Assembly (NCBI RefSeq): GCF_023617305.1
Contig: NZ_CP081485.1
Location: 62,001 to 126,000 of the forward strand
Direction of reading: 5' to 3'
DNA: 64,000 nucleotides
Source: Methanobrevibacter sp. TLL-48-HuF1
Lineage (GTDB): Archaea; Methanobacteriota; Methanobacteria; Methanobacteriales; Methanobacteriaceae
Shown in pieces: positions 11,421-42,358 of the stretch; position 1 is the stretch's first letter; the number at the start of each line of letters is the position of its first letter. The notes under the pieces are model-generated. The model did not search any database, was not told the DNA's origin, and saw only the letters and a list, made by a program, of their open reading frames with translations. Both the position numbers and the translations under genes were made by a program.

Positions 11421-11441
11421 AATTAAATAGGTGTGATGCAT

Positions 11442-12095: not shown

Positions 12096-12178
12096 CTATT
12101 TTATTTTTTTCATTATTGTATCTTATACGAAAAATAGTATGAAAATATAATAGGCTATAAAAATTGGGAGGTAAAACT

Positions 12179-13618
12179 ATGAAATTATAAGAAGAATTAA
12201 TGCAATATATTTTAGCTAAACAAAGATTAATGCCTAAAATTATATCTTCTAAATTATCCTCAAATAATAAAAAATTAAATCATCGTACTGATTATTTCAG
12301 AATAAAAGAATACATTGACAACTTTTTAAATGGCAATAATCAAAATAGATTTATTGTAATGCCTGGTCTTAGAGGAGTAGGTAAAACAACAATTTTATTG
12401 CAATTGTATGAATATTTAATTAAAAATGATGTTCCTAATTCAGATATTCTTTATTTTGATGTAAGTGAGTTGAAAAGTTTTTATGATGTTAATATATTGG
12501 ATGTAATAACTAATTTTATTGAAAACATACATCAAACAACAATGGTGGAATTAAATAAACCAATATTCTTATTAATTGATGAAGTTCATTTTGATAAAAA
12601 TTGGGCATTAACTGGTAAAATAGTATATGATAATAACAATAATATTTTTATGATTTTTACTGGTTTATCTGCTATTGAATTACAAATTCATGCTGATGCA
12701 ATTAGAAGAATGGAAAAATAACCAATATTTCCATGTACATTTCCAGAATATCTTTTTTTAAAACAGAACATACATTTTCCAAAGGAGATGTCTTTTGCAT
12801 TGCAAGATTTAATACTAAATGGAAATGTTGATTTAACTATAACTAATGAAAGAAAAATCCAAGAAAGTATGATTAACTTAAATAATGATCCATATATTGA
12901 ATTCAAAAAGTTTTTAACACAACATTCATTCCCATTTTCTTTAAAAATGCAAGATTTTCAAATTCATGAAAAAACTATAAATAATATAAATAGAATAATT
13001 GAAAAAGATATTTCTTCTTTAAAAACATTTAATAGTTCTACTAATGATACTATATCACGAATTGTTACATATATTGCTATGCAAAAACCTGGTGGAACTT
13101 CAAATGTTAAATAGCTCAAATGTTAGGTGTTTCTCCAAATACAATTAATAATATCTTAAATGTTTTAGAAAAAACACAATTATTATTTCCCATAACTGCT
13201 TATGGTACTGGAAGTAAAATTATTAAAAAACCCTGGAAGTATTTCTTTTTAGCTCCATCCATTAAAGCATCAATTAATTTTGAAATTGGAAGATATAATT
13301 TAAATAGTAAAAAATGTTTATCCACATTAGCTGAAACTTTAGTTGCATCATCATTATATAAACTAAAATTGTTATGTCATAATTTTATAGGTTTATTTTA
13401 TGATCCTAAAAAGTCAGGTGTTGATTTTTTAGTAAGAAATATTGATAAAATAATTCCGATTGAAGTGGGTGTAGGTAAAAAAAACTAAAAGTCAATTAAC
13501 AAAAGCAATTAATAATTATAATTCTGATTATGGTATTTTAATATCTAATAGAACATTTAGCATAAAAAAGGAAAATAATATTATTTATATTCCATTAAGA
13601 ACCTTTTCTTACATATGA
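12179..13618 (+). pseudogene. Broken archaeal ATPase, paralog of the 13621-15054 gene
   Basis: The translation parallels the intact minus-strand ATPase along its whole length. Shared parts include the P-loop GLRGVGKTT, the Walker B region FLLIDEVHFDKNW, FMIFTGLSA, and the C-terminal nuclease-like FYDPKKSGVDFL and IIPIEVGVG. Lesions: stop at codon 4 (12188-12190) right after a good GGGAGG ribosome-binding site, TAA at 12719-12721, a frameshift near 13113 and an extra A in the A-run near 13478-13486. With these corrected the reading frame runs to the TGA at 13616-13618. Clearly inactivated. Confidence 0.85.
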
Positions 13619-27995: not shown

Positions 27996-28568
27996 GTGAA
28001 CTTTAAAATTATTCAACTGTCTGACAATATTTGTGAAAAAACCAGGACTCAGGAGTTTTTATTTAAGCAGATCAAAAAAGAATACGGATACGGATATGTG
28101 CCGGAATATCATAAAGACATAATGAAACTAAATGAATATTACATAAATCCGAGAAAAAATAATTTGTTCTTGGCAAAAAATTCTGAAAATGATGAAATAA
28201 TAGCTACAATAGCTGTAAGAGGCTATGACAAAAAATTCAGAGAATTTGAAGGATTATATAATAAAGAAGATACTGCAAGCATCTGGAGATTATATGTTGA
28301 TGAAAAATACAGAAGACTGGGTCTTGCAACAAAACTGTTCAAAGTAGTAGAGTCATTTAGCTATTTAAACAGCTATAAAGAAATTTATCTCCACACCCAT
28401 AAAAATTTAAATGGGGGATTAAACTTTTGGAAAAAAATGGGATTTGAAACAACTGTAGATACAAACAATGACCTTCAGACAGTCCATATGATTAAAAAAT
28501 TACCTAAGTTCAAACTCAATAATGTTCAATCCAGCCATAACTTAGCTATTGAATCTTTAACTCTTTAG
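27996..28568 (+). CDS. GNAT-family N-acetyltransferase
   Basis: About 190 residues with a GNAT fold: LFLAKNSENDEIIATIAVRG, IWRLYVDEKYRRLGLATKLF (the acetyl-CoA binding R/Q-x-x-G-x-A motif, RRLGLA) and FWKKMGFET. It should transfer an acetyl group from acetyl-CoA to an unknown amine. I place the start at the GTG at 27996, which is 6 bp after a full GGAGGAG ribosome-binding site. The in-frame ATG at 27981 has none. Divergent from the nicotianamine-synthase-like gene, so a joint metabolite is conceivable. Confidence 0.7.
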   Translation: MNFKIIQLSDNICEKTRTQEFLFKQIKKEYGYGYVPEYHKDIMKLNEYYINPRKNNLFLAKNSENDEIIATIAVRGYDKKFREFEGLYNKEDTASIWRLYVDEKYRRLGLATKLFKVVESFSYLNSYKEIYLHTHKNLNGGLNFWKKMGFETTVDTNNDLQTVHMIKKLPKFKLNNVQSSHNLAIESLTL

Positions 28569-28813
28569 ATTATTATTTCCCTATCAGTTGTTATGTTATC
28601 TGCCATATAATTGATATGACCTCTTCTGGCTGTTTTTTTAACATTGAAAAATATGTTTAGTTTATGGCCTGCAACTGAATTATTATATTCTGCATTTAAT
28701 TTATTATGCATTCCTTCGCTTATGGTATATTTTCTTCCGTCATCTTCAACAATCCAGTAAGCTTTGGAAAAATCCGAACCGAACAGTATAGCCAGACTAA
28801 AATCTACTTTCAT
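28565..28813 (-). CDS. Small hypothetical protein
   Basis: An 82-residue protein without recognised family, mixed beta/alpha composition (MKVDFSLAILFGSDFSKAYW). It converges on the GNAT gene with a 4-bp overlap of stop codons. No signal peptide. Function unknown. Confidence 0.5.
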   Translation of the reverse strand: MKVDFSLAILFGSDFSKAYWIVEDDGRKYTISEGMHNKLNAEYNNSVAGHKLNIFFNVKKTARRGHINYMADNITTDREIII

Positions 28814-28956
28814 ATATTATAGTTACATATGATTTAATAAAAAGTTTAGACATATTAAAAAAAATAGTTTTAAGAAATTATAACTCAATCTACTTTTATA
28901 AAGAAAATATAAATCCTATTAATTTTATATATAATATAAACACTGATGGAGATATT

Positions 28957-29400
28957 ATGAAAGACTCTGTTTTTAATGATGAATCAAGTTATTTCAATTC
29001 TTGGTATAATATAACCAAATACTTTGATAAATTTTTTGCCAATAGAATAGGAAACTTAAATATAAGTCCTAATGAGGTAATGTTTTTATCAAAAATTTAT
29101 TATAATAAAGGTATTAGCCAAAAAGCAATTGCAAATCAAATGCTTGTTTCTGAAGCATATGTTACAAAAATGTTTAAAAGTTTAAATAATAAAAATTTAG
29201 TTAAAAAATCAATTGATCCAAAGAATAATACTCGTAGACAATTATTTTTAACAGAAAAAGGAAAAAAAGTTTTTGAAGAAATGATTGAAATTTTTAATGA
29301 ATTTGAAGAATTACTATTTCAAAAATATGGCAAAGACCAAATAAAATATGTAGCACATATTATGGCAACTATAGGAACTGATTCTTTGAAATTTCAATAA
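28957..29400 (+). CDS. MarR-family transcriptional regulator
   Basis: A 147-residue winged-helix protein. Helix-turn-helix at residues about 46-85 (ISQKAIANQMLVSEAYVTKM, FKSLNNKNLVKKS) and the wing DPKNNTRRQLFLTEKGKKVF, all typical of MarR. These act as dimers controlling neighbouring genes. Here the convergent neighbour is the radical SAM gene, whose promoter region holds CTTAATTAAG (30916-30925). Ribosome-binding site GGAG before the ATG (gatggagatatt). Confidence 0.8.
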   Translation: MKDSVFNDESSYFNSWYNITKYFDKFFANRIGNLNISPNEVMFLSKIYYNKGISQKAIANQMLVSEAYVTKMFKSLNNKNLVKKSIDPKNNTRRQLFLTEKGKKVFEEMIEIFNEFEELLFQKYGKDQIKYVAHIMATIGTDSLKFQ

Positions 29401-29423
29401 TAAAAAATAAGAAAAATTATTTA

Positions 29424-30860
29424 TTATATTTCTTCCCATTCTTTCATGTTTTTAACACAACCCGGATCCCCATATTTAATGTCATGGAAATAATTGTAAG
29501 CTCTTGCTCTACATCCTCCACAAATATAACGAGATTCACATTCTCCACAATGTCCTTCAAGTATATCTTTATCTCTGAATACTTTTAAAAGTTCATTATT
29601 AAGCCATAAATCATTTAAATCATCATTTATATTTCCTAAACAAACTTCTTTATCATGTGGGAAGAAAACACAAGGATATATTTTTCCATCAGGTTCTACA
29701 CTCATATAAAATCTTCCAGCACCACATCCGCCTACAAACTCTGCAAGTTGCATCATTGCTGGATTTTGATATTCTACATTATAGAAATGTGTTGGAATCA
29801 TTTCTTTATTATCATAAGTATGAGTTACAACATCCGCAAATTGTGGAGCTGTAGATAGTATTTGCATATCTTCTATACCATTTTTCTCATAAATTAATTC
29901 AAGTATTTCAAGTCTTTCATCTGGACTTAAATCTACTTCTTTAATATCTGCACCTTTTCCTGTTGGTATAAAATTATATAACATAAACCATCCAACTTTT
30001 AAATCAGCTAAAAAGTCAATCATTTCAGGAATTTCATCTTTATTCTTTTTAGTTACAGTTGTAGATACTTCTACAAAAGTATCTGTTTTGTTAAAGTTTT
30101 TAATAGCATTTACGGCATGTTCCCATGATCCTTTAACTTGACGGAATTCATCATGTGTTTTAGGATTTAATCCATCTAAACTTATTTGTACAAATTTCAA
30201 ACCTAAATCTGAAAATTCTTTTGCTGTTTCATAATTATTAAAGATATATCCATTAGTTGCCATACTAACATACATACCTCTATCTGTTGCATGTTTAATG
30301 AATTTCTTAATATCTGGATGTATTGACGGTTCTCCACCACTAAAAGCAATTGAAGCTACTCCTAAATCAGCTAGTCTATCAATTCCATCTAGAATTTCTT
30401 CAGAAGATAATTCATTTTCATCTTTTTTACCAGCATTTTCATAACAATGAATACATCTGAAATTACATGCTTTTGTTATGTTCCAAACAATTTGGTAAGG
30501 AGCTCCTGGAGTAAATGGTTTTACAGCTCCAAATTTAGCTAATCCTTTAAATGTACTGATTAAACCAAGTTCCCAATAATCATCCTGCATAGCTCTTATA
30601 AAACTTTCTTCAGAAGTTTCAAAACTTTTTAATGCACTGTGAATAATTTTAGAAATTACTTCATAACTTGCTTTACATTTAAAACATATATCATCTTGTT
30701 TACCTAAATAATAGTCTAATGAAGATTGCAATCTGCTTTTACCGCATTTATCACAGTACTTTAAGGATTTGTTTAATAATTTTTTAGATAATTTATTATT
30801 GACAATATGTTGAAATGTTTTTACTAATTTTTCCATATCCATCTCATTTTCAGATTCCAT
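29424..30860 (-). CDS. Radical SAM/SPASM-domain enzyme
   Basis: About 478 residues. The N-terminal part has two CxxC pairs (CDKCG ... CFKC). The radical SAM core shows CNFRCIHC (CxxxCxxC, residues near 133-140) and IAFSGGEPS. The C-terminal SPASM region carries GGCGAGRFYMSVEPDGKIYP, HCGECESRYICGGCRARAY and a final DPGC, so two auxiliary iron-sulphur clusters are expected. Such enzymes modify peptides or assist cofactor/heme assembly; the substrate is not evident. ATG at 30860 chosen because GAGG lies 8 bp upstream. Confidence 0.75.
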   Translation of the reverse strand: MESENEMDMEKLVKTFQHIVNNKLSKKLLNKSLKYCDKCGKSRLQSSLDYYLGKQDDICFKCKASYEVISKIIHSALKSFETSEESFIRAMQDDYWELGLISTFKGLAKFGAVKPFTPGAPYQIVWNITKACNFRCIHCYENAGKKDENELSSEEILDGIDRLADLGVASIAFSGGEPSIHPDIKKFIKHATDRGMYVSMATNGYIFNNYETAKEFSDLGLKFVQISLDGLNPKTHDEFRQVKGSWEHAVNAIKNFNKTDTFVEVSTTVTKKNKDEIPEMIDFLADLKVGWFMLYNFIPTGKGADIKEVDLSPDERLEILELIYEKNGIEDMQILSTAPQFADVVTHTYDNKEMIPTHFYNVEYQNPAMMQLAEFVGGCGAGRFYMSVEPDGKIYPCVFFPHDKEVCLGNINDDLNDLWLNNELLKVFRDKDILEGHCGECESRYICGGCRARAYNYFHDIKYGDPGCVKNMKEWEEI

Positions 30861-31155
30861 TTTCATATCCTCATTTTAATTATTTATTTCAATTTAAAAC
30901 TTAATTATGTAAATGCTTAATTAAGTTAAGTAAAAACAAATAATTATTTAGGTTCATTATATTTAAATCTTATCAAAAATTAGATTTTAAAACTGAATAT
31001 TATTAAATAATTTTTAGAGAATCTAAATTTTTTTTAGTGATAAATATAGTTAATTTGTTTTGTTTTTATTATTTGTAATGGTAATTTTTTGGTGTTTTGT
31101 AAAAATACATCTGTATAATTTTTAGTTTATTAAAAAAGGGTCTTAATATCGATAA

Positions 31156-31192
31156 GTTAAATTTTAATTGTATCTTTCATTAAGAAACATAC
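31156..31192 (-). repeat. Degenerate terminal repeat (R0)
   Basis: It has the same 37-bp length as the array repeat and matches it at both ends (GTtAAATTTTAATTGtATCTTT ... AAACATAC) but differs at about eight or nine positions, mostly in the 3' arm of the dyad. A decayed leader-distal repeat is a classic property of CRISPR arrays. Confidence 0.8.
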
Positions 31193-31265
31193 CCCAATGA
31201 TAACTCAGATTATATGATTGAGAAAGGATACATAAACATTGAAAAATAATATCATTACTTCTACT

Positions 31266-31535
31266 TTAAATCATTTCAAGTATACGAACTGGTTGCATAA
31301 GCAAACCTTCATCAGTGAATTCATTATCTGGACTTTTAGGATCATCATAATAATAACATGCACTTTCATATTCTCTTCTTATCATACCATTTTCCTTTTC
31401 TTCTTTTAGAAGATATCTTCTAAATTCCAAATCCTTGGGAGAATCAGCTTCTCCTAAAAATAATTCACTAACTCTTTTCTCAAATTCTTCATAAGTCATA
31501 GGGTATTTGGATTCATCAATAGTTTCAGATTTCAT
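31266..31535 (-). CDS. Insert 0: small acidic protein, possible immunity protein
   Basis: About 89 residues, strongly acidic (FEKRVSELFLGEADSPKDLE, YESACYYYDDPKSPDNEF). It follows the truncated C-terminus of another protein by 17 bp in the same direction, an arrangement like toxin then immunity gene in viral MuF loci. I infer this only from context and composition. ATG at 31535 chosen because AAGGA lies about 10 bp upstream; an ATG at 31544 is also in frame. It is complete within the first insert. Confidence 0.5.
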   Translation of the reverse strand: MKSETIDESKYPMTYEEFEKRVSELFLGEADSPKDLEFRRYLLKEEKENGMIRREYESACYYYDDPKSPDNEFTDEGLLMQPVRILEMI

Positions 31536-31552
31536 TATTATCATTCCTTACT

Positions 31553-31716
31553 TTACCGTGTTTGGTTTTCATCTCTGATTGTGTAAGCTTTAACATAAGC
31601 ATCATCACCAGTTACTGGAGAAATTGCTTCATAAAACTGTTCAGATTTCTCATATCTACTTTGTTTACCTGTATATTTAAAGAATATTACATGCTCTGCT
31701 TTATCTCTTTCTTTTA
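31553..31716 (-). pseudogene. Insert 0: C-terminal fragment cut by repeat
   Basis: The reading frame enters from the repeat at 31717 and gives about 54 residues (KAEHVIFFKYTGKQSRYEKS, EAISPVTGDDAYVKAYTIRD) before a TAA at 31553-31555. The 5' part is missing, exactly at the repeat border. The family is not recognised; position before a small acidic gene suggests the end of a toxin-like protein. Confidence 0.5.
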
Positions 31717-31753
31717 GTCAAATTTTAATTGCATCTTTTTGAAGCAAACATAC

Positions 31754-31854
31754 ATATTAGTGCTGCTGAAGAATTATTAAAATGGTATGATTTATTAGAA
31801 AAAGGAATTATAACTCCTGAAGAATTTGAAAAAAAGAAAAGAGAATTAATATGA
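31754..31854 (+). pseudogene. Insert 1: C-terminal SHOCT domain fragment
   Basis: Directly from the repeat border the frame reads SAAEELLKWYDLLEKGIITP, then EEFEKKKRELI and a stop. This is a complete SHOCT motif, the short C-terminal domain of many proteins. The rest of the gene is absent. It converges on the ion-channel gene with 2 bp between stops, so the insert spans a junction of two genes of the source genome. Confidence 0.7.
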
Positions 31855-31856
31855 AT

Positions 31857-32591
31857 TTAATTATTTTTCATTATAATCTCTTTTAATTCATCAATTTTAT
31901 TTTCTAATTTTTTATTTTCTTCTTTAAGTTCATCAATTTTACTATTCAAATCTTTTTCAGAATCATCAGTTATTTTACTCACATATATGGATGATATAGC
32001 TGCAGTTAATGTGCTGAAAAAAATAATTCCTAATAATATGACAAAATATGAAATTACTTTTCCTATTATTGAATGTGGAGTTATATCTCCATAACCAACA
32101 CTTGTTAATGTTACAATAATATACCAAAATGCATCAATTAAATTTGTAACTGAATCTTCAATAAATAATATAGCAATAGATGAAATTACAACAAATATTA
32201 TCACAACATATATCAATTTATCCAAGTTTGTTGATTTGATAAAATAAACAAATGAATGTCCCCATCCTTTTAAAAAGAGTAATACTCTGCTGAATCTTAT
32301 TAAACGTATTATTCTTATGAATCTGAACCATCTTAAGAAAAAATAGTCTAAAGGTATTATTGCGATAACAGTCAACCAGTTTTCTTTTAAAAATTGTTTT
32401 TTATCATTTGATTTATATAAGTTATATATAAAATCAATCCATAAAATGAAACAAACAAATAAATCAAAGTAAATAATTTTCTGCTCTACATGTTGAGAAA
32501 CATTGGAAAAAGTCAATATTAATAATAATATCATATCAATTATTACTAACAACAATACTGATGATTCAATTATTTTTTCTGTATATTTCAT
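31857..32591 (-). CDS. Insert 1: voltage-gated-type K+ channel, intact
   Basis: A 244-residue membrane protein with six predicted helices. An S4-like segment (RWFRFIRIIRLIRFSRVLLF) carries regularly spaced Arg, and the pore filter TLTSVGYGDITP near residue 165 is the K+ selectivity signature. A C-terminal coiled coil (about residues 215-244) could tetramerise it. The gene is complete, with 174 bp of upstream DNA before the next repeat, so it could be expressed from the array. It looks like host-type DNA rather than viral DNA. Confidence 0.8.
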   Translation of the reverse strand: MKYTEKIIESSVLLLVIIDMILLLILTFSNVSQHVEQKIIYFDLFVCFILWIDFIYNLYKSNDKKQFLKENWLTVIAIIPLDYFFLRWFRFIRIIRLIRFSRVLLFLKGWGHSFVYFIKSTNLDKLIYVVIIFVVISSIAILFIEDSVTNLIDAFWYIIVTLTSVGYGDITPHSIIGKVISYFVILLGIIFFSTLTAAISSIYVSKITDDSEKDLNSKIDELKEENKKLENKIDELKEIIMKNN

Positions 32592-32802
32592 GAAAATCTA
32601 TCTTTTTTAGTTAAAATATTTACTTTTAATTCCCGAATTATTAATAACAAAATCCAAATTAAGATTATTTCTAATTCTTTTTATCATTAATTCTATGTTA
32701 TATTTTTTATAGAATATAATTTTAAAGATTATATTATTAGTAAAAAAAAGTTAATTTGAGTATTAGTCAAATTTTAATTGCATCTTTTTGAAGCAAACAT
32801 AC

Positions 32803-32954
32803 CTCCAAAAGGAACAAAAGGGGCGGCTATTGATGGTGAGATAATAGGTAATGCTGGAACTGAATATGAATATTTATTAAATAAAAATCAAGAATATATT
32901 ACATTAAATGTAGATGAAAATTTAAGAATAATTGATATCTTGTTGGTGAATTAA
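32803..32954 (+). pseudogene. Insert 2: C-terminal fragment of ADP-ribosyltransferase-like toxin
   Basis: Directly after the repeat the frame reads PPKGTKGAAIDGEIIGNAGT, EYEYLLNKNQEYITL and ends ILLVN before TAA. PKGTKGA...E.E.LLN is the last conserved block of the ART/VIP2-like exoenzyme fold, with the E-x-E catalytic region (EYEYLLN). The start of the gene is cut away by the repeat. Such domains occur as C-terminal toxins of phage MuF proteins. Confidence 0.65.
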
Positions 32955-33353
32955 ATGGAAAATTTGAAGTCAAAATATATTGTTTTGTCATTTGTGAATC
33001 AAAAAAAAGAAGAATTAATTAATATACCTGATTTTTTACCATGGGGGATTTCTTTACAATTTAAAGATAATCCTACTAGATTAAAAATTATTGAAGAAAA
33101 TAATTTAAAAAGGGTATATGTATTAAAACATGTGAAACGTAATGAGTATGTTAAAATGCATAAAACTGATTTTTTCTTTCATGCTGAAGAATTAGTGAGG
33201 TTTGTTGAAAAGTATCCTCAATTTAAAGGAGTTCTCAAAGAAGAATTACTAAATAAGGATATCATAAACTATGAATCAATAACTGGTCTGAGTTTATTGG
33301 AGATTTTCAACAAAGAAGGTAAATACTTTGAAGATAAAATATATAATAAATAA
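32955..33353 (+). CDS. Insert 2: possible immunity protein, intact
   Basis: A 132-residue soluble protein of unknown family (MENLKSKYIVLSFVNQKKEE). Its ATG directly follows the stop codon of the ADP-ribosyltransferase-like fragment, so the two were coupled. Toxin followed at once by its antidote is the usual order, hence the tentative immunity assignment. The whole gene sits inside the insert. No catalytic motif seen. Confidence 0.55.
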   Translation: MENLKSKYIVLSFVNQKKEELINIPDFLPWGISLQFKDNPTRLKIIEENNLKRVYVLKHVKRNEYVKMHKTDFFFHAEELVRFVEKYPQFKGVLKEELLNKDIINYESITGLSLLEIFNKEGKYFEDKIYNK

Positions 33354-33383
33354 GAGGTGAGTTGAAATGTCATTAATTACTTT

Positions 33384-33436
33384 ATGGCAAAAAAACCTAT
33401 TGAAGAATATGTATTGCCTGATGGAAGCTTTGTTTG
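33384..33436 (+). pseudogene. Insert 2: gene start cut by the next repeat
   Basis: MAKKPIEEYVLPDGSFVW starts at an ATG about 20 bp after a GAGGTGAG motif and runs straight into the repeat at 33437. Another start at 33367 in a different frame is closer to the GAGGTGAG. Either way, a gene has been cut by the insert border. Confidence 0.4.
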
Positions 33437-33473
33437 GTCAAATTTTAATTGCATCTTTTTGAAGCAAACATAC

Positions 33474-33667
33474 ATATTGTTGAAAAAAGAATGAGCTATG
33501 AATATGATGTTAATCAATTAGATTATTGGCAACAAGAACGTTTGAGAGAAAAATTAACTGCTCAAGTTACTGAAGAAAATTTCAGAGAATATGAAGAAGG
33601 TATTTTAAATTTTTTCAATGATGAAAATGGTCTAAAATTATATGTTCATGATAAAAAAAGAGGATGA
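33474..33667 (+). pseudogene. Insert 3: 5'-truncated protein fragment
   Basis: The frame is open from the repeat border and ends at 33667: IVEKRMSYEYDVNQLDYWQQ, then RLREKLTAQVTEENFREYEE. A helical acidic protein end of unknown family. An internal ATG (33491) would allow a short product. It is followed 6 bp later by another small gene, as in the other inserts with small viral genes. Confidence 0.5.
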
Positions 33668-33673
33668 GCAAAT

Positions 33674-33982
33674 ATGACTTCAGTATTTTTTGGTATGAAA
33701 GAATTGTTATTTATTTCAATTTATGATGGTGAAAAATATTATACAGATAAATTTTCCATGGAAGAAGCTAAAAATTTTGATAATAATAAAAGATTTACTC
33801 TTCTAAGTCAAGGGTACGATGTTGAAACTTATGAAAAATTATTTTATGAGTTAAAAGAAGATATTCTTATTAAAAATAGATCTGCCAAAAATATTTGGGA
33901 GCGAGCTAAAATTGCGGAAGAATACTTACAGAAGAAAAAAGATCTTGCTAAAGAATATCTTAATGTGGAATGGAAATCATAA
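33674..33982 (+). CDS. Insert 3: small protein, intact, unknown
   Basis: A 102-residue protein (MTSVFFGMKELLFISIYDGE ... EEYLQKKKDLAKEYLNVEW). The N-terminal half looks beta-rich and the C-terminal half helical. Ribosome-binding site GAGGATGAG just before. A further gene begins at ATG 34002 (ATG ACT GAT) and is cut by the repeat after three codons. Possible immunity-type gene by context only. Confidence 0.5.
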   Translation: MTSVFFGMKELLFISIYDGEKYYTDKFSMEEAKNFDNNKRFTLLSQGYDVETYEKLFYELKEDILIKNRSAKNIWERAKIAEEYLQKKKDLAKEYLNVEWKS

Positions 33983-34047
33983 ATGATGTGAGGTTCACTA
34001 AATGACTGATGTCAAATTTTAATTGCATCTTTTTGAAGCAAACATAC

Positions 34048-34390
34048 TAAACTAAAAAAATCGGAGGTAATAAAAAAATGCATCAACAATAAAAAAAACT
34101 GATTTTTAATGTTTTAATGTACCGATGTAATAAATACTTGTAATAAATAGTAAGCTATGCGAGAACTCATATAAAATGTTTTAAAAGTTTGTAGACGTTA
34201 AATCTTCTTAATATTTTATTATTTCATCCATATAGAATAAATAAAAAAAAACATTTTTTTTTGAGGGTCTTCTTCATACTATACCGTGAGCAATTAGAAA
34301 CTTCTTTGAAAGGTGGGGTGAGGGTTAGATAAATGGTAAAAAGTGGGGTAAATTGGTAATTTACCTAGGTTAATTAATGTTTTTTTTCAT
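34048..34390. other. Insert 4: non-coding part
   Basis: About 340 bp without a gene. It has an orphan ribosome-binding site (ggaggt, near 34064) followed by a 4-codon frame, a G-rich stretch (ggtggggtgagggtt, about 34312-34326) and a hairpin GGTAAATT-ggt-AATTTACC (34347-34365) downstream of the gene at 34391, probably its terminator. Confidence 0.45.
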
Positions 34391-34891
34391 TTAAAAAATT
34401 CTTCTTAGGTATGAAAAATCTTCGCCTTCATCATAATCATCAGGTATGCTTTTACTGACATTGTTTTCCATGTGTTTTTCTGTGATGGTGTTTATATGTT
34501 CATCATAAATAATAACTCGCATGCCGCTTCCATGGTTATTGTCCATACCCCATCCATCATATGTGCCATCTCTTAGTTTGGATCCAAAATCGAATGTTAT
34601 TCTCATTCCATTATTGAAATAAATTTTTTCATTTTTCCAGTTATTGCCCTGGTTTTGATATCTGTTATTTTCATAACTTCTATCTACAAATGGGTTGGGT
34701 TCTATTAATTTTTCAATAACTTCACCATTTTTATCATATAATATGGATTTTCTGAAGTCTCCTTCTATTCTTTGTTGATTCCAGTCACAGACTCCATCAT
34801 CGTTTCGAGTACCATAATTTACAATTAATTTCATACCATTATCAAAATCAATAGTCTTACTTTTATCCAAACCCTCAGTATATACATGCAT
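34391..34891 (-). CDS. Insert 4: hypothetical protein with two similar halves
   Basis: A 166-residue protein with an internal duplication: KTIDFDNGMKLIVNYGTRND and EKIYFNNGMRITFDFGSKLR, each followed by an Asp/Gly/Trp-rich loop and a RKSILYD/MRVIIYD strand. All-beta folding is likely. A good GGAGGA ribosome-binding site precedes the ATG. The gene is complete, with only about 28 bp before the repeat at 34920. No family recognised. Confidence 0.55.
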   Translation of the reverse strand: MHVYTEGLDKSKTIDFDNGMKLIVNYGTRNDDGVCDWNQQRIEGDFRKSILYDKNGEVIEKLIEPNPFVDRSYENNRYQNQGNNWKNEKIYFNNGMRITFDFGSKLRDGTYDGWGMDNNHGSGMRVIIYDEHINTITEKHMENNVSKSIPDDYDEGEDFSYLRRIF

Positions 34892-34956
34892 AATTTAAAT
34901 CCTCCAGGATTTTTTTAGTGTCAAATTTTAATTGCATCTTTTTGAAGCAAACATAC

Positions 34957-35030
34957 CTTCTAAGTATTAATATTTCATTGTCTTTGTTTTTAACGATTCC
35001 TCTCATTGTAAGTCCATATGGTTTGTCCAT
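34957..35030 (-). pseudogene. Insert 5: N-terminal fragment of a Nudix hydrolase
   Basis: MDKPYGLTMRGIVKNKDNEI + LILRR matches the first strands of Nudix hydrolases (G.V.N..G.ILLLRR) and then stops at the repeat border. GGTGGA 7 bp before the ATG at 35030 supports this start. It is divergent from the acyltransferase fragment in the same insert, so this insert spans a divergent promoter of the source genome. Confidence 0.65.
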
Positions 35031-35192
35031 TTTAAATCCACCTGCTTTACTGTTTGCCACGGTGATATTTAATTATTTTGATTTATCTGTTATGTTCATT
35101 TTTAGTATCATTTCAAGAGTAATGTTTATAATATATTAAATTTTATAACTAATTATTAGTTAATAGTTCAACTTTAAAGAGGGTAAAGTTCA

Positions 35193-35485
35193 ATGGAAAT
35201 TGGTGAAAGGATAAGATATGTTGATCAATTAAGGGCAGTCAGTATACTTTTCTTAATTGCAATAAACGTAGCTATGGTTTTTAAGTATAAAAGTGTAGGA
35301 AATTTACAGGAATATGTTGTTTTTACGACTTTCGGATTCGGTGTTCCAATATTTCTCATGCTTTTAGGTTTGTTAATGATTGACAGGGATTACTCAGATA
35401 TTGAAACATTTATTAAAACGGATTTTCTAAGGATTTTCATTCCTTTTTTAATCTGGAATACATTACTGGCTTTACTTATGACGGC
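35193..35485 (+). pseudogene. Insert 5: N-terminal fragment of a membrane acyltransferase
   Basis: About 98 residues beginning MEIGERIRYVDQLRAVSILF. R-x-x-x-x-D-x-L-R-A-x-(S/A)-I is the start of the acyltransferase-3 family. Two or three membrane helices follow, and the frame is cut by the repeat at 35486. It continues by chance in frame through the repeat into the adhesin fragment of insert 6; that fusion should not be taken as a real gene. Ribosome-binding site AGAGGG upstream. Confidence 0.7.
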
Positions 35486-35522
35486 GTCAAATTTTAATTG
35501 CATCTTTTTGAAGCAAACATAC

Positions 35523-36021
35523 AAATATGATGTGTCTGCTTACTTCACAGGTCAAAATTATTATAAAGACTCATTTGCTTCAGCATCATTTAGTGTGAAT
35601 AAATTAAACCCAGTCCTTAGTATTAATGCTAGTTCTATTAACTGTGGCGAAGATGTTATTATTAATGTGTCTTCATCTGTATCTTCTATAGAAGTTGAAT
35701 TAGTTATTCGTTTAGACAATTCAAATTATTATAGATATGATTCTTTCTATATATATGGTCAAGAATCAAGAAAAATATCTGATTTGCCTGCAGGAAGTTA
35801 TTTGGTTCAATTTATTGCACCGGAAGACACTAAAAATAATAGAGCACAAACTACAGTTCGTTTCACAGTATCCAAATTAGCTTCTTCTGTTGCAGTTGAT
35901 GTTAAAGATATTGTTGTTGGTGAGGATGCTGTTATTGGTGTGTCTGTTCCAGGTATTGTTTCTGGTGTAGTTAATGTTACTGTTAATGATGAATCTTATG
36001 ATGTAGCTATTGTTGATGGTA
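35523..36021 (+). pseudogene. Insert 6: internal segment of an adhesin-like protein
   Basis: Open in one frame across the whole 499-bp insert: about 166 residues with Ig-like repeats (LSINASSINCGEDVIINVSS, VAVDVKDIVVGEDAVIGVSV, VVNVTVNDESYDVAIVDGS). The pattern is that of Methanobrevibacter adhesin-like proteins. Neither start nor stop is native. A piece of surface-protein gene thus forms a complete insert. Confidence 0.75.
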
Positions 36022-36094
36022 GTCAAATTTTAATTGCATCTTTTTGAAGCAAACATACTACCTTATAAATATAAACTAAAAGGAGGTGAACACA

Positions 36095-36262
36095 ATTATT
36101 GATTATACTGAAAGCATTTCCAAAGATAACGTATCTGAAATAATAGATATATTACTCAAATTTCAATTAAAAAAAGTAACTGCTAAAGATGAAATTTCTA
36201 TGGAAACAGAAGAAGCAATGAAAAATTTAATAAGATTAATAGAACTTAAATCTACTTATTAA
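36095..36262 (+). CDS. Insert 7: small helical protein, non-ATG start
   Basis: AGGAGGTGA (36080-36088), a near-perfect ribosome-binding site, is followed 6 bp later by ATT ATT GAT, a frame of 55 codons to the TAA at 36260-36262 ([20 protein letters not shown] ... [11 protein letters not shown]). No ATG or GTG lies in the right position, so an ATT start is inferred. The small helical product has no family. It converges on the next gene with an 11-bp overlap. Confidence 0.45.
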
Positions 36263-36449
36263 GTCCTTCAGCTAATTCTTTAATTGGGGAGTAATTTTCT
36301 CCAGTGATTTGAAATATTTTATTTTTTGTGTATTCATTAATAGCTTGTTTAGAATCAAATTTGAGTTCTACTCCTTTTTCAAGATATATTTTGTAGGTCC
36401 CATTGGTTCTAAGTACTATTGCTGGATACTTTTCTTCTTCAGATACCAT
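36252..36449 (-). CDS. Insert 7: small protein, unknown
   Basis: A 65-residue protein ([20 protein letters not shown] ... [10 protein letters not shown]). Beta-strand start and helical end. It is the last of three same-direction genes behind the JAMM-domain fragment, with GAGGTTAT before the ATG. No family recognised; viral accessory gene by context. Confidence 0.5.
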
Positions 36450-36466
36450 AATATAACCTCAAATAT

Positions 36467-36697
36467 TTAAAGTTTAGATTCATCTATAGTAATAGGATTA
36501 TCAGATGTACCAAACAAATCAGGTAAATCACCAGATTCTATACAATCTTCTTTCCATTCATAATATGCTTCGGGATCTTCCAACCATAACTTTTTAATGC
36601 GAGCTTTTTGCTCTTCATCAGTTAATGTTTTCATATATGCAACTTCACTAGCATTTCCAAGCATGCCATAACCCCCATCTAACATTCCATCATACAT
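36467..36697 (-). CDS. Insert 7: small acidic protein, homolog of one in insert 9
   Basis: A 76-residue acidic protein with the pattern DPEAYYEWKEDC...LPDLFGTSDNP. The protein at 38082-38345 has NPKAFAEWKEWC...LTDIFGTLEDP in the same place behind a JAMM-domain protein. The conserved order suggests that it neutralises or escorts the JAMM domain (inference). AGGAGAT ribosome-binding site before the ATG. Confidence 0.55.
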   Translation of the reverse strand: MYDGMLDGGYGMLGNASEVAYMKTLTDEEQKARIKKLWLEDPEAYYEWKEDCIESGDLPDLFGTSDNPITIDESKL

Positions 36698-36716
36698 ATT
36701 AATATATCTCCTTTTC

Positions 36717-37290
36717 TTATTTAATAAATATTACTTCCATGTCAAAATCAACTAACTTCTCTTGATACATCTTTACATACCTATCATTATGTTTCATCAC
36801 ATAATTTTCTAACTTCCTATCATAAAGACTTTTTTTAGTAGCATAAAACTCCCTCCAGTTAGGAGTGTCTCTTCTAAAATCATCAACCATCTTATCAACA
36901 ATACCCTTTGTTACTTTTTTAATTTCATTATATCTTTCTTTGTTTTTAGTTACATTATTGTTTTTTATGATTAATGTGCCTGATTTATTAGTTGATACTC
37001 CATTTGACACCCCACACTTAGTATATGCAATTAAATCTTTTGGAGATGGTAATGGTGAGGTGTTACCTGGATGATTATGTATTACAGTATGAATACCATT
37101 TTTTAATCCTTCTTTTTGTAGCCATTCTGGAAATGCTACTTTCACGGCATTACCATTAGTGAATGTATCTATTATTTCATCATTTAATTTTACTGAAGCA
37201 TATTCAGTATTTTCATAATGAATATCTTTTTTAAAGTTAGATAAATGGTTAAATAGATTGGTGATTTCTTCATCACTTAGTTTTCCTTGA
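36717..37290 (-). pseudogene. Insert 7: JAMM-domain C-terminal fragment of a viral protein
   Basis: About 190 residues, open from the repeat border. It carries a JAMM/MPN metalloprotease signature IHTVIHNHPGNTSPLPSPKD (H-x-H-P-x7-S-x2-D), which binds zinc. The same domain forms the C-terminus of the MuF protein in insert 9, so this is probably the tail of such a protein from another virus. The first codon of the open frame lies in the repeat, so the real start is lost. Confidence 0.65.
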
Positions 37291-37327
37291 GTCAAATTTT
37301 AATTGCATCTTTTTGAAGCAAACATAC

Positions 37328-37741
37328 ACATTATAACTATCAGATACATCATAAGTATTATTAGCATAAGTATAATCCATATTTACAGTATTTTTAGCAA
37401 CAGTACTTACACCAGTTTCAGAATCAATAATGGTTATATTATCATCTGTACTATTATCAAATTCCGGAGCATATGCTTTATACCTTAAACTAAGACTTGT
37501 ACCACTTAAATCTCCAGTAGCTTCTTTTAATTTTAAAATTATTTTTCCGCCAGTTTTATTACCGTCAGGTTTTTCAACAGTATATAAACTGGAATCTATG
37601 ATTCTTCCTTTGGAGTCATATAAAACCAGACTGCCCAAATACATTATATTAGATGGAAGTACATCTGCAATAGTGATATTTTCAATTTTTGCACCATTAG
37701 CTATGTTAATATTTACATAATACTCAAATGGGAAATTTGAA
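37328..37741 (-). pseudogene. Insert 8: internal segment of a DUF11-like surface protein
   Basis: The smallest insert (414 bp) is open in one minus-strand frame: YYVNINIANGAKIENITIAD, VLPSNIMYLGSLVLYDSKGR, GKIILKLKEATGDLSGTSLS. Alternating beta strands and the 'VLPSNI.YLGS' turn resemble DUF11/conserved-repeat adhesins of Methanobrevibacter. Neither end is native. The open frame continues by chance through the repeat at 37291. Confidence 0.7.
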
Positions 37742-37798
37742 GTCAAATTTTAATTGCATCTTTTTGAAGCAAACATACCTCAAAAAAAAAGAAAAAAA

Positions 37799-38140
37799 TT
37801 AAAGAATTTGTTTCAATTTATATGTAACTTTTTCATTATCTTCAATAGGATTATACTCAATAATCCTATTTAATATAACATGAATTGTCTCTTCAATATT
37901 GTTTTTAAGATTTTCTTTAAATTTTTTATCAAAACTAAACTTAATATTCTTCAATTCATTCCCATCTTCAGAAGAAATTTCCAAAGAACAAACATTTCTA
38001 TGTGTATCAATAATAATTAAATAATAATGATGTCTATTTAGGATTAATATAAAAGTATAAATAATATAAAAAAAGTAGGTTTTAGTCTTCAGCAAATAGT
38101 TTTTCTTCATCAAATTCTTTAGGATCTTCAAGAGTACCAA
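37799..38140 (-). CDS. Insert 9: hypothetical protein, start uncertain
   Basis: Up to 113 residues. The C-terminal 70 (IDTHRNVCSLEISSEDGNEL, KNIKFSFDKKFKENLKNNIE) look like a real soluble protein; the first 40 residues are hydrophobic and overlap the upstream gene by 59 bp. The true start may therefore be further downstream at a non-ATG codon. It ends 21 bp from the repeat at 37742. No family recognised. Confidence 0.4.
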   Translation of the reverse strand: MVLLKILKNLMKKNYLLKTKTYFFYIIYTFILILNRHHYYLIIIDTHRNVCSLEISSEDGNELKNIKFSFDKKFKENLKNNIEETIHVILNRIIEYNPIEDNEKVTYKLKQIL

Positions 38141-38345
38141 AAATATCAGTCAAAAGATGTACATACATACACCATTCTTTCCATTCAGCAAAAGCTTTAG
38201 GATTAGTCTTATACATCCCTCTCATATGCTCCATCTTTTCCTCCTCAGTTTCAAGGATTCTTATGTAAGCACTATGATCAGTGTTAAATGTCCCGTAACC
38301 AACACGACGACCCGCATCAAGACCATTAACTTCAAAGTATCTCAT
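38082..38345 (-). CDS. Insert 9: small acidic protein, homolog of one in insert 7
   Basis: An 87-residue acidic protein with NPKAFAEWKEWCMYVHLLTD + IFGTLEDP, matching the 76-residue protein of insert 7. It follows the MuF-JAMM gene by 15 bp with a GGAG ribosome-binding site (gaaggagtgttg). A dedicated partner of the JAMM-type toxin domain is the natural inference, not proved. Confidence 0.55.
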   Translation of the reverse strand: MRYFEVNGLDAGRRVGYGTFNTDHSAYIRILETEEEKMEHMRGMYKTNPKAFAEWKEWCMYVHLLTDIFGTLEDPKEFDEEKLFAED

Positions 38346-38360
38346 GAAACAACACTCCTT

Positions 38361-39995
38361 CTAATATAAAAATTCAATTTCAAAACCATAATCTGATAAT
38401 TCATCTTCATATAATTTTTTATATTTATTTTTATGTTCATTAACATATTTATCTCTTTCTTTAAAATATTTTAACTCTTCAGAAGTATATTCCTTAACAG
38501 GTTTACCCTCATACAAAGTAGGCGGAGGAACCATACCTGTATCAGTAGAAAAATGCTCTTTCATTTTATCTTCAATCTTTACACCAAGTTCATAGATTTC
38601 TTTATATTTGTCTTTATTTTGTGAAGATTTATTGTTTTTAAGAATAAAAGTACCTTCTTCATTTGTTACTAAACCATATTTTATTTCTAATGAAGTAAAA
38701 TAAGCTAAATCATCAGAAGAAGGTAATGGGGGGTTTGATTTTGGATGATTATGAATTAAATATAAAATACCTTTATCTTCCTTTGCAATTTCTAAAAAAG
38801 TAGTAGATAAAGCTACTTCTTTATTCGCCCCATTTGAAAAAATCCCTGATACAGTTCCTTTATTTGTTATTGCCCAACCATGCTCAATATTAATAAAATG
38901 AACATTCTTTTGAAAATTAAATAAATCCTCAGTTAAAATGCTTATAGTCTTTGAATCCATAAATCCTGAAAGTCTTTTTTCAAATTCTTCTTTAGATAAA
39001 GAATTTCTAATTCCTTTGTAATCATATTCCCATAAATCTTTTTCATTGTTTAATTTCCCATTTGAGAAAAGATTTCTTAAAATATTAAGTTCATCATTTG
39101 ATAATGGTGTTAAGTTAACTGTGTATGGTTCAACATCACTATCTCTACTATCCCACACACTCAAATAAGTACAACGGCAATTAGGGTGCAAAGGCAACAT
39201 ACTATCCTCATCCAAATCACTTATACGATGCACATTATCTTTTAAACCAGGATGATAAACCTTATCTTCACTTTTATTAAATAAGTAAGCATTATCCAAA
39301 CATAAACTACAAACATTACTATCTTCAGCAGTTAGAATAGTAACTTCAGTATAGCCTTCATTAACATAGGATTGTAAAATACCTGTGTTTTGTGCTCTGC
39401 TAACTTCTGTTTTAGCAATCATTACTGCTCTTTGTTTAGCACTTAAAGTACTACCTTCTAAAGGTTTTACTCCTAATTCAATTATTTTGTTAGCTAAACT
39501 ATATGGGTTTTCACCAGTAGCTACAGCTTGAGTAATTGTTTTTTTAACACTGCCTCGTAAATCATCACTTAATTTCTTTATTAAATGAAAATTGTATTGT
39601 CTTACAAAGTCTAATGCTTCCTTGTCAGTATCAGTGAATACGAGTTTCTGTTTAATGTCATTGTATCCTTTCTGTTTACCTAATTCATATACTCGTTCGA
39701 TTAAATCATCAACACTTTCATAGCTCTGCTCTAATAAATCATCCCATTCCATATCCAAACTTTGGAGTATTTCTTTTTGTCTTTGCATTTCCGCATAATA
39801 ATACTCTTTAGCCCGTGGTGATGATAACCACATTCTACTATGGTTTAATTGCTTGTCAAGTAAGTTACTTATCAAATTATAATATTCTTGTACACTTATG
39901 GGGTCTTTAGTTTTGTTTATACGGAATTCTTCCCATAAACCAGTACATGATAATAATAATTTATCTGTTTCTATCTGTTCACTTGTTTTAATCAT
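38361..39995 (-). CDS. Insert 9: MuF-type viral head protein with C-terminal JAMM domain
   Basis: A 544-residue intact gene. Residues about 130-285 are the phage Mu gpF-like minor head domain (AVMIAKTEVSRAQNTGILQS, SNVCSLCLDNA, MLPLHPNCRCTYLSV). The C-terminal part has the JAMM zinc signature ILYLIHNHPKSNPPLPSSDD near residue 415. MuF proteins with variable C-terminal enzymatic or toxin domains are known in tailed viruses. Its start overlaps the portal fragment by 8 bp, as in viral head operons. A virus segment of 2.6 kb therefore sits between two CRISPR-type repeats. Confidence 0.8.
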   Translation of the reverse strand: MIKTSEQIETDKLLLSCTGLWEEFRINKTKDPISVQEYYNLISNLLDKQLNHSRMWLSSPRAKEYYYAEMQRQKEILQSLDMEWDDLLEQSYESVDDLIERVYELGKQKGYNDIKQKLVFTDTDKEALDFVRQYNFHLIKKLSDDLRGSVKKTITQAVATGENPYSLANKIIELGVKPLEGSTLSAKQRAVMIAKTEVSRAQNTGILQSYVNEGYTEVTILTAEDSNVCSLCLDNAYLFNKSEDKVYHPGLKDNVHRISDLDEDSMLPLHPNCRCTYLSVWDSRDSDVEPYTVNLTPLSNDELNILRNLFSNGKLNNEKDLWEYDYKGIRNSLSKEEFEKRLSGFMDSKTISILTEDLFNFQKNVHFINIEHGWAITNKGTVSGIFSNGANKEVALSTTFLEIAKEDKGILYLIHNHPKSNPPLPSSDDLAYFTSLEIKYGLVTNEEGTFILKNNKSSQNKDKYKEIYELGVKIEDKMKEHFSTDTGMVPPPTLYEGKPVKEYTSEELKYFKERDKYVNEHKNKYKKLYEDELSDYGFEIEFLY

Positions 39996-40401
39996 ATTCT
40001 CGCCTTAACCTTTCCATAGTCAAAGCTTTTTGCAGACTTTTAACTTGTAAATCCACATTAGGACTCATGTTTAGGTTTTGGTTTAAAGGTAACTCACCCC
40101 AATCCACAGGATTCAAACCATAATCCAAACGAACCTCGTTAATAGATTTAACACCGTTCTTCAACTGAATATCCTCTATCTGAGCACGAGTCAACTTATT
40201 CTCCAAATCCATATGGTTATACTCAAAAACCTCTTTAAACCCAGACCTGCCTAATACTTTATTAAAAGCATTTTCAATAATCTTACAATCCCCGGACAAA
40301 GTATTATTAAAAGATTTTTCTTGACTATCCCCTGTACCACTACCTAAGTGTGCTGTTTCAACAATACCTATCACAGCAGGAGGCACTTGAAAACCAATTA
40401 A
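39988..40401 (-). pseudogene. Insert 9: C-terminal fragment of a viral portal protein
   Basis: About 137 residues from the repeat border: LIGFQVPPAVIGIVETAHLG, FEYNHMDLENKLTRAQIEDI, VRLDYGLNPVDWGELPLNQ. 'IN E.R...GL.P' and the position directly before MuF are typical of portal protein C-termini. The frame happens to be in phase with an ATG inside the repeat (MQLKFD), which could allow translation of a fragment. Confidence 0.7.
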
Positions 40402-40438
40402 GTCAAATTTTAATTGCATCTTTTTGAAGCAAACATAC

Positions 40439-40921
40439 CTAATGCTAATGTTGAGGTTATAATTCATATAGCTGATAATACACAGGTAGCTGCATTTTTA
40501 ACTCCTAGAATTATTATTAATGAAATAAAAACTCATTTTGCTAATCAGTTAGATGAAATTGATATGATTTTAGTTCCAGGTTTAATAAAGAAAGGAACCA
40601 GGGAAATAACAAAAGAATTGGGAATTCCTACTTTTAAAGGTTCAACTGACGGAGCTGATTTGGCTATGGTTTTAAATTTAATTGATCAAATTGAATTGTC
40701 TGAAGATAAACCTGCAGATAAACTAATTGAAGAGGAAAAAAGAAAAGAAGCTTTAAAATTCATTGATGATTTTGAAAATGATGAAAAAACCATTGAAAAA
40801 TTATTGGAAAAACCTAATAATATTCTGGTTGGAAATCTCCCGGTAGGTGAAGATTTTCCAATGAGAGTATTGTCTGAAATAGCTAACGCCCCATTTTTAT
40901 CAAAAGAAGCTTTAATTCATA
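40439..40921 (+). pseudogene. Insert 10: internal fragment of a dihydropteroate-synthase-related protein
   Basis: Open across the insert, about 160 residues: [60 protein letters not shown]. This matches the N-terminal part of the methanogen dihydropteroate-synthase-related protein (pterin/methanopterin pathway). It lies next to the leader, so it would be the most recent acquisition, and it looks like chromosomal methanogen DNA, not viral DNA. Confidence 0.7.
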
Positions 40922-40958
40922 GTCAAATTTTAATTGCATCTTTTTGAAGCAAACATAC

Positions 40959-41072
40959 TTTATTTTTATTTTCTTTTTTATACTATTTAAACACATGTTA
41001 ATTCTTTTTTGAAAAGTATTATTAGGAAAGTATAAAAGTATTACAAAAATAAGGGGGCTTTCCTAAAATTAT
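40959..41072 (-). promoter_or_regulatory. Candidate leader of the array
   Basis: About 114 bp, very AT-rich, between the last repeat and the cas1 stop codon. It contains TTAGGAAAG (41022-41030) inverted as CTTTCCTAA (41058-41066), which could be a cas1 terminator or a protein-binding site, and two AAGTATTA boxes (near 41015 and 41033). A tatttaaacaca element near 40983 could be part of a promoter. Confidence 0.5.
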
Positions 41073-42077
41073 TTACCAGTTTAAATAAAACCCACTATAT
41101 TCTGTATTATTAAGTAATGAATTTACTAATTTTTTTGTTTGATTTTCAATGATTTTAGCATAAGTTACTTTTTCATTTTCAAAAGTTAAATCACTATGAA
41201 TTTTGGCCATTATTTCGCCGGCTAATAAGTTTCTTGATTCTAATTTTAATGAATTGTTTCTTTTATCAATGTTTGTTTCGTTGATTTGGTTGGTGTTTAT
41301 TAATTTGAACACTGTTTTATCAACGATTTGTTGTCTAAATTCTTCTATTAAATCAAAAATTAAGCTTTGTCTTCTTTTTAAATCTGCATGCAATAATCCG
41401 CAGTATGGATCAAGCCCTAATGTTACAATATTTTTTGCAATTTCTGAAGCAAGTATTGCATATCCATAATTTAGCATAGAATTTACAACATCATTTTCTG
41501 GTTTTTGATTTCTGTTTTTGAAATTGATTTCATCAGGCAGCAGCAAACTTACTGCTTCCCAGTAATTAACAGAAGCTATTCCTTCAAATCCCATTATTTT
41601 ATTTTTAGATGTGAATATATTATCATTTAGACTTATTTTAAAGTTTTTGAAATCTTTTATGTTTTGTTTAATTTTATTTTCAATTATTTTAACTTCTTTG
41701 ATTTTTTTATTTTTATTTAATGTTTTAATTGTTGATTTTTGGTTTTTCATTTTAGATGTTATAAATTCTTTTGAAATTAAAAGCCCTTTATGATTTTCAC
41801 TAGCTTGATATTGTAATTTTTTTAAAACAATATTGTTCTGATTTGGAGACTCTAAAATATAGTTGATTTGACCAAAGTAGTTGATACTAATTAATTTAAT
41901 ATTGTTTTTTGCCATAAGATTTAATGCATCGAATGTTATATGGCCTTTAGCCATTATAGTTATATCTGATACTTTGTTTGCAGAAATTCTATATATCTCA
42001 TTGTCTTTTTCCATGACTACTATTTGATTGTCTTTTTTTCTTAGTGTTTTATTGTAGCCATCAATTATCAATTTCAT
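41073..42077 (-). CDS. cas1: Cas1 integrase
   Basis: A 334-residue Cas1. The N-terminal beta domain (MKLIIDGYNKTLRKKDNQIV) is followed by a helical catalytic domain. The metal ligands appear present: Glu in MGFEGIASVNYWEAV, His in GLDPYCGLLHADLKRR, and Asp in SLIFDLIEEFRQQIVDK. Cas1 with Cas2 inserts new DNA at the leader-repeat junction and duplicates the repeat. Here the only adjacent array has kilobase-scale inserts. cas2 overlaps its start by 4 bp, and the operon points toward the array. No effector genes accompany it. Confidence 0.9.
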   Translation of the reverse strand: MKLIIDGYNKTLRKKDNQIVVMEKDNEIYRISANKVSDITIMAKGHITFDALNLMAKNNIKLISINYFGQINYILESPNQNNIVLKKLQYQASENHKGLLISKEFITSKMKNQKSTIKTLNKNKKIKEVKIIENKIKQNIKDFKNFKISLNDNIFTSKNKIMGFEGIASVNYWEAVSLLLPDEINFKNRNQKPENDVVNSMLNYGYAILASEIAKNIVTLGLDPYCGLLHADLKRRQSLIFDLIEEFRQQIVDKTVFKLINTNQINETNIDKRNNSLKLESRNLLAGEIMAKIHSDLTFENEKVTYAKIIENQTKKLVNSLLNNTEYSGFYLNW

Positions 42078-42358
42078 AATATCTTATATTTTTCTTCTTC
42101 TAGATTTATTTCTTTTCCAAAATATGTGATTTTATTATAACATGTCCCACATATTGGAATTATAATTATAAACCCGTTTTCATCAGGTATTTTTGATATT
42201 TTTTCTTTTAAAATAAGTATTTCATTATTATCCAAATTTCCAATATATGTTTTTTCACTTATTTGTTTAAATGCATTGTAGTTTAAGATTCTTTTAAGTT
42301 TTAAAATATCTTTTTTGAATTTTAAATTAAATAAAACTAGAATTTTCAATTTTATCAC
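42074..42358 (-). CDS. cas2: Cas2-like protein, divergent
   Basis: A 94-residue protein in the position and with the layout of Cas2: first strand IKLKILVLFNL, helix KDILKLKRILNYNAFKQ, then ISEKTYIGNLDNNE, and GFIIIIPIC..CYNKITYFGK. The Asp that normally follows the first strand is Asn here (LVLFNL), so nuclease activity is unlikely; Cas2 serves mainly as the dimer that positions Cas1. Its divergence could matter for the unusual insert length (inference). Start overlaps nothing upstream. Confidence 0.75.
   Translation of the reverse strand: MIKLKILVLFNLKFKKDILKLKRILNYNAFKQISEKTYIGNLDNNEILILKEKISKIPDENGFIIIIPICGTCYNKITYFGKEINLEEEKYKIL

Follow-up and report, generated by a model that had tools for sequence, protein, structure and literature searches.

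The window, that is, the whole stretch of DNA analysed here (64,000 nucleotides; bases 62001-126000 of a single 1.95-Mb contig, 28% GC), contains adjacent cas1 and cas2 genes that are transcribed toward an array of widely spaced 37-bp repeats, whose inserts are 414-2623 bp long in the window. From the far end of the array to the cas genes, the features are as follows (no strand is assigned to inserts):

31156-31192, + strand: leader-distal terminal repeat, matching the array repeat at 29/37 and probably of an older type
31193-31716: insert 11 (oldest), 524 bp, encoding part of a protein whose tblastx relatives lie in the giant arrays of L050 and L061, two other species
31717-31753, + strand: repeat, 37/37
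31754-32765: insert 10, 1012 bp, ion-channel gene, known from viruses too (phrog_7872)
32766-32802, + strand: repeat, 37/37
32803-33436: insert 9, 634 bp, 98.3% end-to-end copy of virus contig L074:9849-10480
33437-33473, + strand: repeat, 37/37
33474-34010: insert 8, 537 bp
34011-34047, + strand: repeat, 37/37
34048-34919: insert 7, 872 bp, partial match to virus L074 (254 bp at 94.9%)
34920-34956, + strand: repeat, 37/37
34957-35485: insert 6, 529 bp, self copy of G000:C1:921250-921781, end-to-end 99.2%
35486-35522, + strand: repeat, 37/37
35523-36021: insert 5, 499 bp, self copy of G000:C1:1382517-1383015, end-to-end 99.8%
36022-36058, + strand: repeat, 37/37
36059-37290: insert 4, 1232 bp, fragments of virus-family proteins (phrog_13287), which have relatives in the G006, G007 and G066 arrays
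37291-37327, + strand: repeat, 37/37
37328-37741: insert 3, 414 bp, 86.7% end-to-end match to a G031 locus
37742-37778, + strand: repeat, 37/37
37779-40401: insert 2, 2623 bp, with the C-terminal part of a portal gene, a minor head gene (Mu-F) and small genes; head-tailed virus vir080 matches it at both ends
40402-40438, + strand: repeat, 37/37
40439-40921: insert 1 (cas1-proximal, newest), 483 bp, 100% end-to-end self copy within G000:C1:684625-685110
40922-40958, + strand: leader-proximal repeat, 37/37
40959-41072, - strand: leader, between the first repeat and the cas1 stop, conserved in G006, with a TATA-like box TTTAAATA about 25 nt before the repeat
41073-42077, - strand: cas1, 334 aa, candidate catalytic E165, H230 and D242/E245 conserved
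42074-42358, - strand: cas2, 94 aa, the sole gene family retained beside cas1 of this type (25/27 loci)

Both cas families were recognised by Pfam and NCBIfam, with HMM scores of 239 bits for TIGR00287 and 26.5 bits (cut-off 24.5) for TIGR01573. The candidate active-site residues of Cas1 (E165, H230, D242 and E245) are invariant, and the pair thus has the composition of an adaptation module, an E-H-D/E Cas1 beside Cas2. The effector and processing genes that would complete a CRISPR-Cas system were absent from the locus, and when the neighbourhoods of 27 loci were compared, the only broadly common neighbour was cas2.

The terminal repeat (GTTAAATTTTAATTGTATCTTTCATTAAGAAACATAC) matches the array repeat (GTCAAATTTTAATTGCATCTTTTTGAAGCAAACATAC) at 29 of 37 positions, the eight ungapped differences lying at positions 3, 16, 23-26, 28 and 29, while its 37-bp length is unchanged and both ends are intact. 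Seven of the eight changes (six within 23-29 and one at 16) fall, on direct reading, in the arms and loop of an imperfect dyad, TTGCATC/GAAGCAA. The other eleven repeats, between 31717 and 40958, are all identical and on the + strand. A union pattern allowing up to three mismatches matched the 1.95-Mb genome exactly 12 times, in each case inside the array at 31156-40958, and exact scans for the array and terminal repeats in viral contigs, and for the array repeat in genome contigs, which may have left out near records, returned no match. Left of the terminal copy, no repeat above chance was detected in the flank 28001-31150 (best gapped scores of 10 and 13; shuffled controls averaged 9.8 and reached up to 13). 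These data bear out the original prediction, which had described a repeat farthest from cas1 with its exact length and both ends kept, about eight or nine changes placed largely in the dyad, and an eleventh insert at 31193-31716; the protein-fragment relatives of this insert likewise lie inside giant arrays. That 31156-31192 is an unrelated look-alike which arose by chance in AT-rich DNA appears extremely improbable to us. At 28% GC, matches of up to 25-26/37 do occur (the best place in the 64-kb window after the terminal copy reaches 25/37), but the observed 29/37 exceeded all of 300 shuffled repeats searched against the same 41 kb (maximum 26/37, mean 23.1), and the terminal copy also lies at insert-like spacing (524 bp), in the orientation of the array repeats, and has base states in common with the relic repeats described below.

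Judged by their matches to donor sequences, the inserts were copied from viruses and from the chromosome of the host cell itself. Two virus-derived inserts in the window match viruses end to end or at both ends, and others match partially. Three inserts (1, 5 and 6) are self copies from the same genome, whose donor loci are intact, with identities of 100, 99.8 and 99.2% that fall with distance from the leader, an age order that is based on n=3 inserts only. Similarly, the two leader-proximal inserts of the G062 array are 98-99% self copies. When insert proteins were compared with viral proteins, two of three were without a relative and the third led to L074, and almost no match emerged when the arrays of other species were compared with phage records by plain BLAST. 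At six donor sites where both ends could be compared for a PAM, no shared motif was seen, and the insert ends have a weak A/T preference. Inserts 11440-12436 and 12474-12958 of L039, together with window 37779-40401, constitute three captures of one viral region in two species and in both orientations.

Each unit is flanked by repeats and several inserts contain ORFs, as would be expected if the units were integron- or transposon-like cassettes in which the 37-bp repeat is part of each mobile unit and the inserts are selected gene cassettes. However, the donor copies in virus and chromosome are without the 37-bp repeat, the inserts break genes at arbitrary points and in either orientation, none of 43 inserts has terminal inverted repeats at its ends, and the neighbouring genes are cas1-cas2 and not an integron integrase, which makes a cassette origin very improbable.

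In about 25 genomes, cas1 is followed by a related giant array, whose inserts span 0.2-7 kb (72 inserts across all arrays, 204-7033 bp, median about 0.9 kb). Among 67 genomes of the genus, Cas1 proteins that are 52-62% identical to the window Cas1 precede arrays with 37-bp repeats and kb-sized inserts, while Cas1 proteins of about 41-43% identity form a separate group in the Cas1 tree, and the one array read from that group (L034) is an ordinary array with a period of about 73 bp. Giant-type Cas1 is also present in other genera of the family, with widely spaced repeats in G101, G131, G121 and G080. The distance from the cas1 end to the first repeat is fixed at 111-117 or about 198 nt, and this leader is conserved in more than 20 genomes. 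The nearest relative, the sister species G006 (Cas1 98.5%), has no orthologous insert in common with the window despite array flanks that are about 95% identical, suggesting that the arrays turn over quickly. At its distal end G006 has its own decayed repeat, which differs from the terminal copy (27/37), and the sequence to the left is not syntenic. A segment with MarR and radical SAM genes (28856-31155) separates the end of the array from the flank that the window and G006 have in common, and at this place G006 lacks it; repeat remnants that might mark it as a possible older insert were sought in this segment and none were found.

Eight arrays have a mixture of perfect and imperfect repeats, and in each of them the imperfect copies begin only beyond the last perfect one as counted from cas1 (joint chance about 4e-8); the leader-proximal repeat served as identity reference in this test, which biases it toward far-end decay, and the exclusion of the first repeat partly offsets the bias. 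In G006, a G7 variant is confined to the three cas1-proximal repeats, whereas the fourth has T7 as in the window, and the repeats beyond the fourth worsen outward from cas1 (34, gapped, and 28 of 37). The confinement of G7 to the proximal repeats indicates that a leader-proximal mutation was copied into newer repeats, as growth at the leader end predicts. Together with the conserved leader, these patterns sustain the earlier proposal that the terminal repeat marks the polarity of the array, and from the sequence comparisons it is largely supported that the array is extended at its cas1 end and that 31156-31192 is its worn, leader-distal end. Opposite-strand repeat copies in G025, G066 and G062 are left unexplained by this polarity model. 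Such copies, within or beyond the giant array, were observed in L043/L070 (G025, six copies), L040/L066 (G066) and L047/L069 (G062), and they may reflect either an inversion or a second array.

Further irregularities were noted among the relatives. In G038 (L045), Cas1 and leader are nearly identical to those of G025, and a single repeat follows about 199 nt after the cas1 end; its first 20 nt match the G025 repeat and its last 17 do not, perhaps as a result of array collapse by recombination between the first and terminal repeats. In G062, contigs C1, C4, C5 and C6 contain further instances of its repeat that lie far from cas1, and a multicopy element is found near some of these. In L061 (G003), L052 (G007) and L066 (G066), some old distal repeats have leader sequence on their leader side, as if an insert had once entered the leader itself or a former array start had become buried.

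A second site with leader and repeat sequence exists in both sister species. In the genome of the window, G000:C1:574849-574979 (L060:4849-4979) combines a decayed repeat with an 83%-identical leader (E=5e-31), and its counterpart in G006 (G006:C1:437750-437878; L137) likewise consists of a decayed leader and repeat; neither locus has a cas1 ORF. The look-alike at G000:C1:574849 was considered as noise, a reading that was rejected on account of its junction with leader sequence. A further leader-like stretch lies on the opposite strand at L060:3329-3429. Similar degenerate copies scattered through the genome outside any array had been named beforehand as evidence that would speak against the original prediction; one copy outside the array does exist, at G000:C1:574849, and the decayed leader attached to it identifies it as a relic array start and not as a scattered element. 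We interpret this second site in both species as a lost sister locus.

Both relic repeats align with the terminal copy with a score of 25 each, compared to scores of 21 and 16 with the working repeat, and most of the eight changes of the terminal copy are also present in the relic-locus repeats. None of 20,000 simulated random 8-substitution decays reached the summed relic score of the terminal copy, and when the same positions were changed to random bases, its relic fit had P=0.006. This better fit to the relics than that of simulated decays suggests that the terminal copy represents an earlier repeat type, and our sequence analysis thus indicates that it probably retains this type, plus some decay; alternatively, it could have been acquired by recombination from the lost second locus. 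The earlier description of the terminal copy as degenerate is therefore correct insofar as the copy is changed and leader-distal, and it fails insofar as it implies random decay alone, since most of the changes are common to the relic repeats. An explanation by plain wear, in which random point mutation of the current repeat produced the terminal copy and no older type existed, could draw on the fact that CRISPR arrays normally decay at their leader-distal end (PMC4869251) and on the graded wear in other arrays of this type. However, it would have to account for a relic fit that none of the 20,000 simulations matched and that has P=0.006 with positions fixed, and for an abrupt transition from eleven identical repeats to one with eight changes where clock-like decay predicts a gradient, and we consider it rather unlikely.

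The sequence itself displays the array with its leader, inserts identical to their donors, relic repeats, and a polarity that recurs across species. On these grounds we conclude with high confidence that the polarised array would have been built by the adjacent Cas1-Cas2, and that 31156-31192, at the leader-distal end, is its oldest repeat. In the mechanism that we propose, Cas1-Cas2 would capture a piece of duplex DNA, viral or chromosomal, that measures 0.2 to several kb and ends at arbitrary points, and join the fragment across the leader-adjacent 37-bp repeat, an integration chemistry that we infer from knowledge of the Cas1 family and from the intact candidate catalytic residues. Gap repair would presumably then duplicate the leader-adjacent repeat, so that the newest insert comes to lie beside the leader and older units are pushed outward. 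As only the leader-adjacent repeat would be copied, later repeats would be clonal and the far-end repeat would never be renewed. Transcription of the array may start from the leader.

Overall, we somewhat favour the view that an effector-less Cas1-Cas2 recorder operates in Methanobrevibacter-like archaea and related genera, that it stores kb-sized viral and self fragments in leader-polarised arrays, that the repeat at the far end is a fossil of a former type, one that a lost sister locus also had, and that repeat types turn over as the arrays grow. An antiviral memory based on long transcripts or recombination, and not on crRNA-guided DNA cutting, can be put forward only tentatively, a grading that extends to any such antiviral role; crRNA-guided cutting of DNA from the inserts is disfavoured because perfect self copies are tolerated. 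The arrays might instead be a by-product, in which a Cas1-Cas2 that has lost its length ruler traps any DNA ends to no benefit and the distal end is debris. The capture of self DNA, the lack of reading-frame logic in the inserts and the absence of an effector near the locus would fit such an origin, but the intact cas1, cas2 and leader across many species and several genera argue for selection, and several inserts are viral, with related viral genes recurring in the arrays of different species, so that a by-product, though a serious rival, appears rather unlikely to us.

In known Cas1-Cas2 adaptation, the stored pieces are about 30-40 nt long and their length is set by a protein ruler. An array with the same logic and pieces of 0.2-7 kb implies that the integrase operates free of such a ruler or that the stored DNA is put to another use. 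In addition, polarity provides a time axis, along which kb-scale records could reveal in what order gut-type methanogens encountered viruses. No account of kb-scale spacer arrays was found in the open-access papers searched, a scope that did not extend to bioRxiv and most subscription papers, and prior publication is possible; an extracellular-vesicle paper on circular DNA of M. smithii showed no link to cas1 or 37-bp repeats.

Among known systems, integrons likewise collect DNA pieces of kb size in an ordered series next to the gene of an integrase. In contrast, the enzyme here is Cas1 and not a tyrosine integrase, the donors are without the repeat and fragments are cut regardless of genes, which sets the locus apart from integrons. 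With casposons the locus has in common a Cas1-family integrase, kb-sized DNA and, in the proposed mechanism, a target duplication, which in casposons measures 14-15 bp (PMC6977970). It differs from them in the presence of cas2, in inserts that contain neither terminal inverted repeats (43 inserts) nor cas1, and in the repeated insertion at one site that yields an ordered array, and it is thus not a casposon. Ordinary CRISPR spacers are short and uniform, 97% of them being 29-43 nt (PMC4869251), whereas the inserts described here measure 204-7033 bp, many of them are self-derived, no clear PAM is apparent at the six donor sites compared, and the locus is without effector genes. Shared with CRISPR arrays are the direct repeats of fixed length in one orientation (eleven at 37/37 and one at 29/37), whose length lies within the usual range of about 24-37 nt, the unique inserts from viral DNA, albeit alongside self copies, the Cas1 and Cas2 families as assigned by HMM, and a polarity evident in the leader beside cas1, the growth at the leader end and the worn distal repeat.
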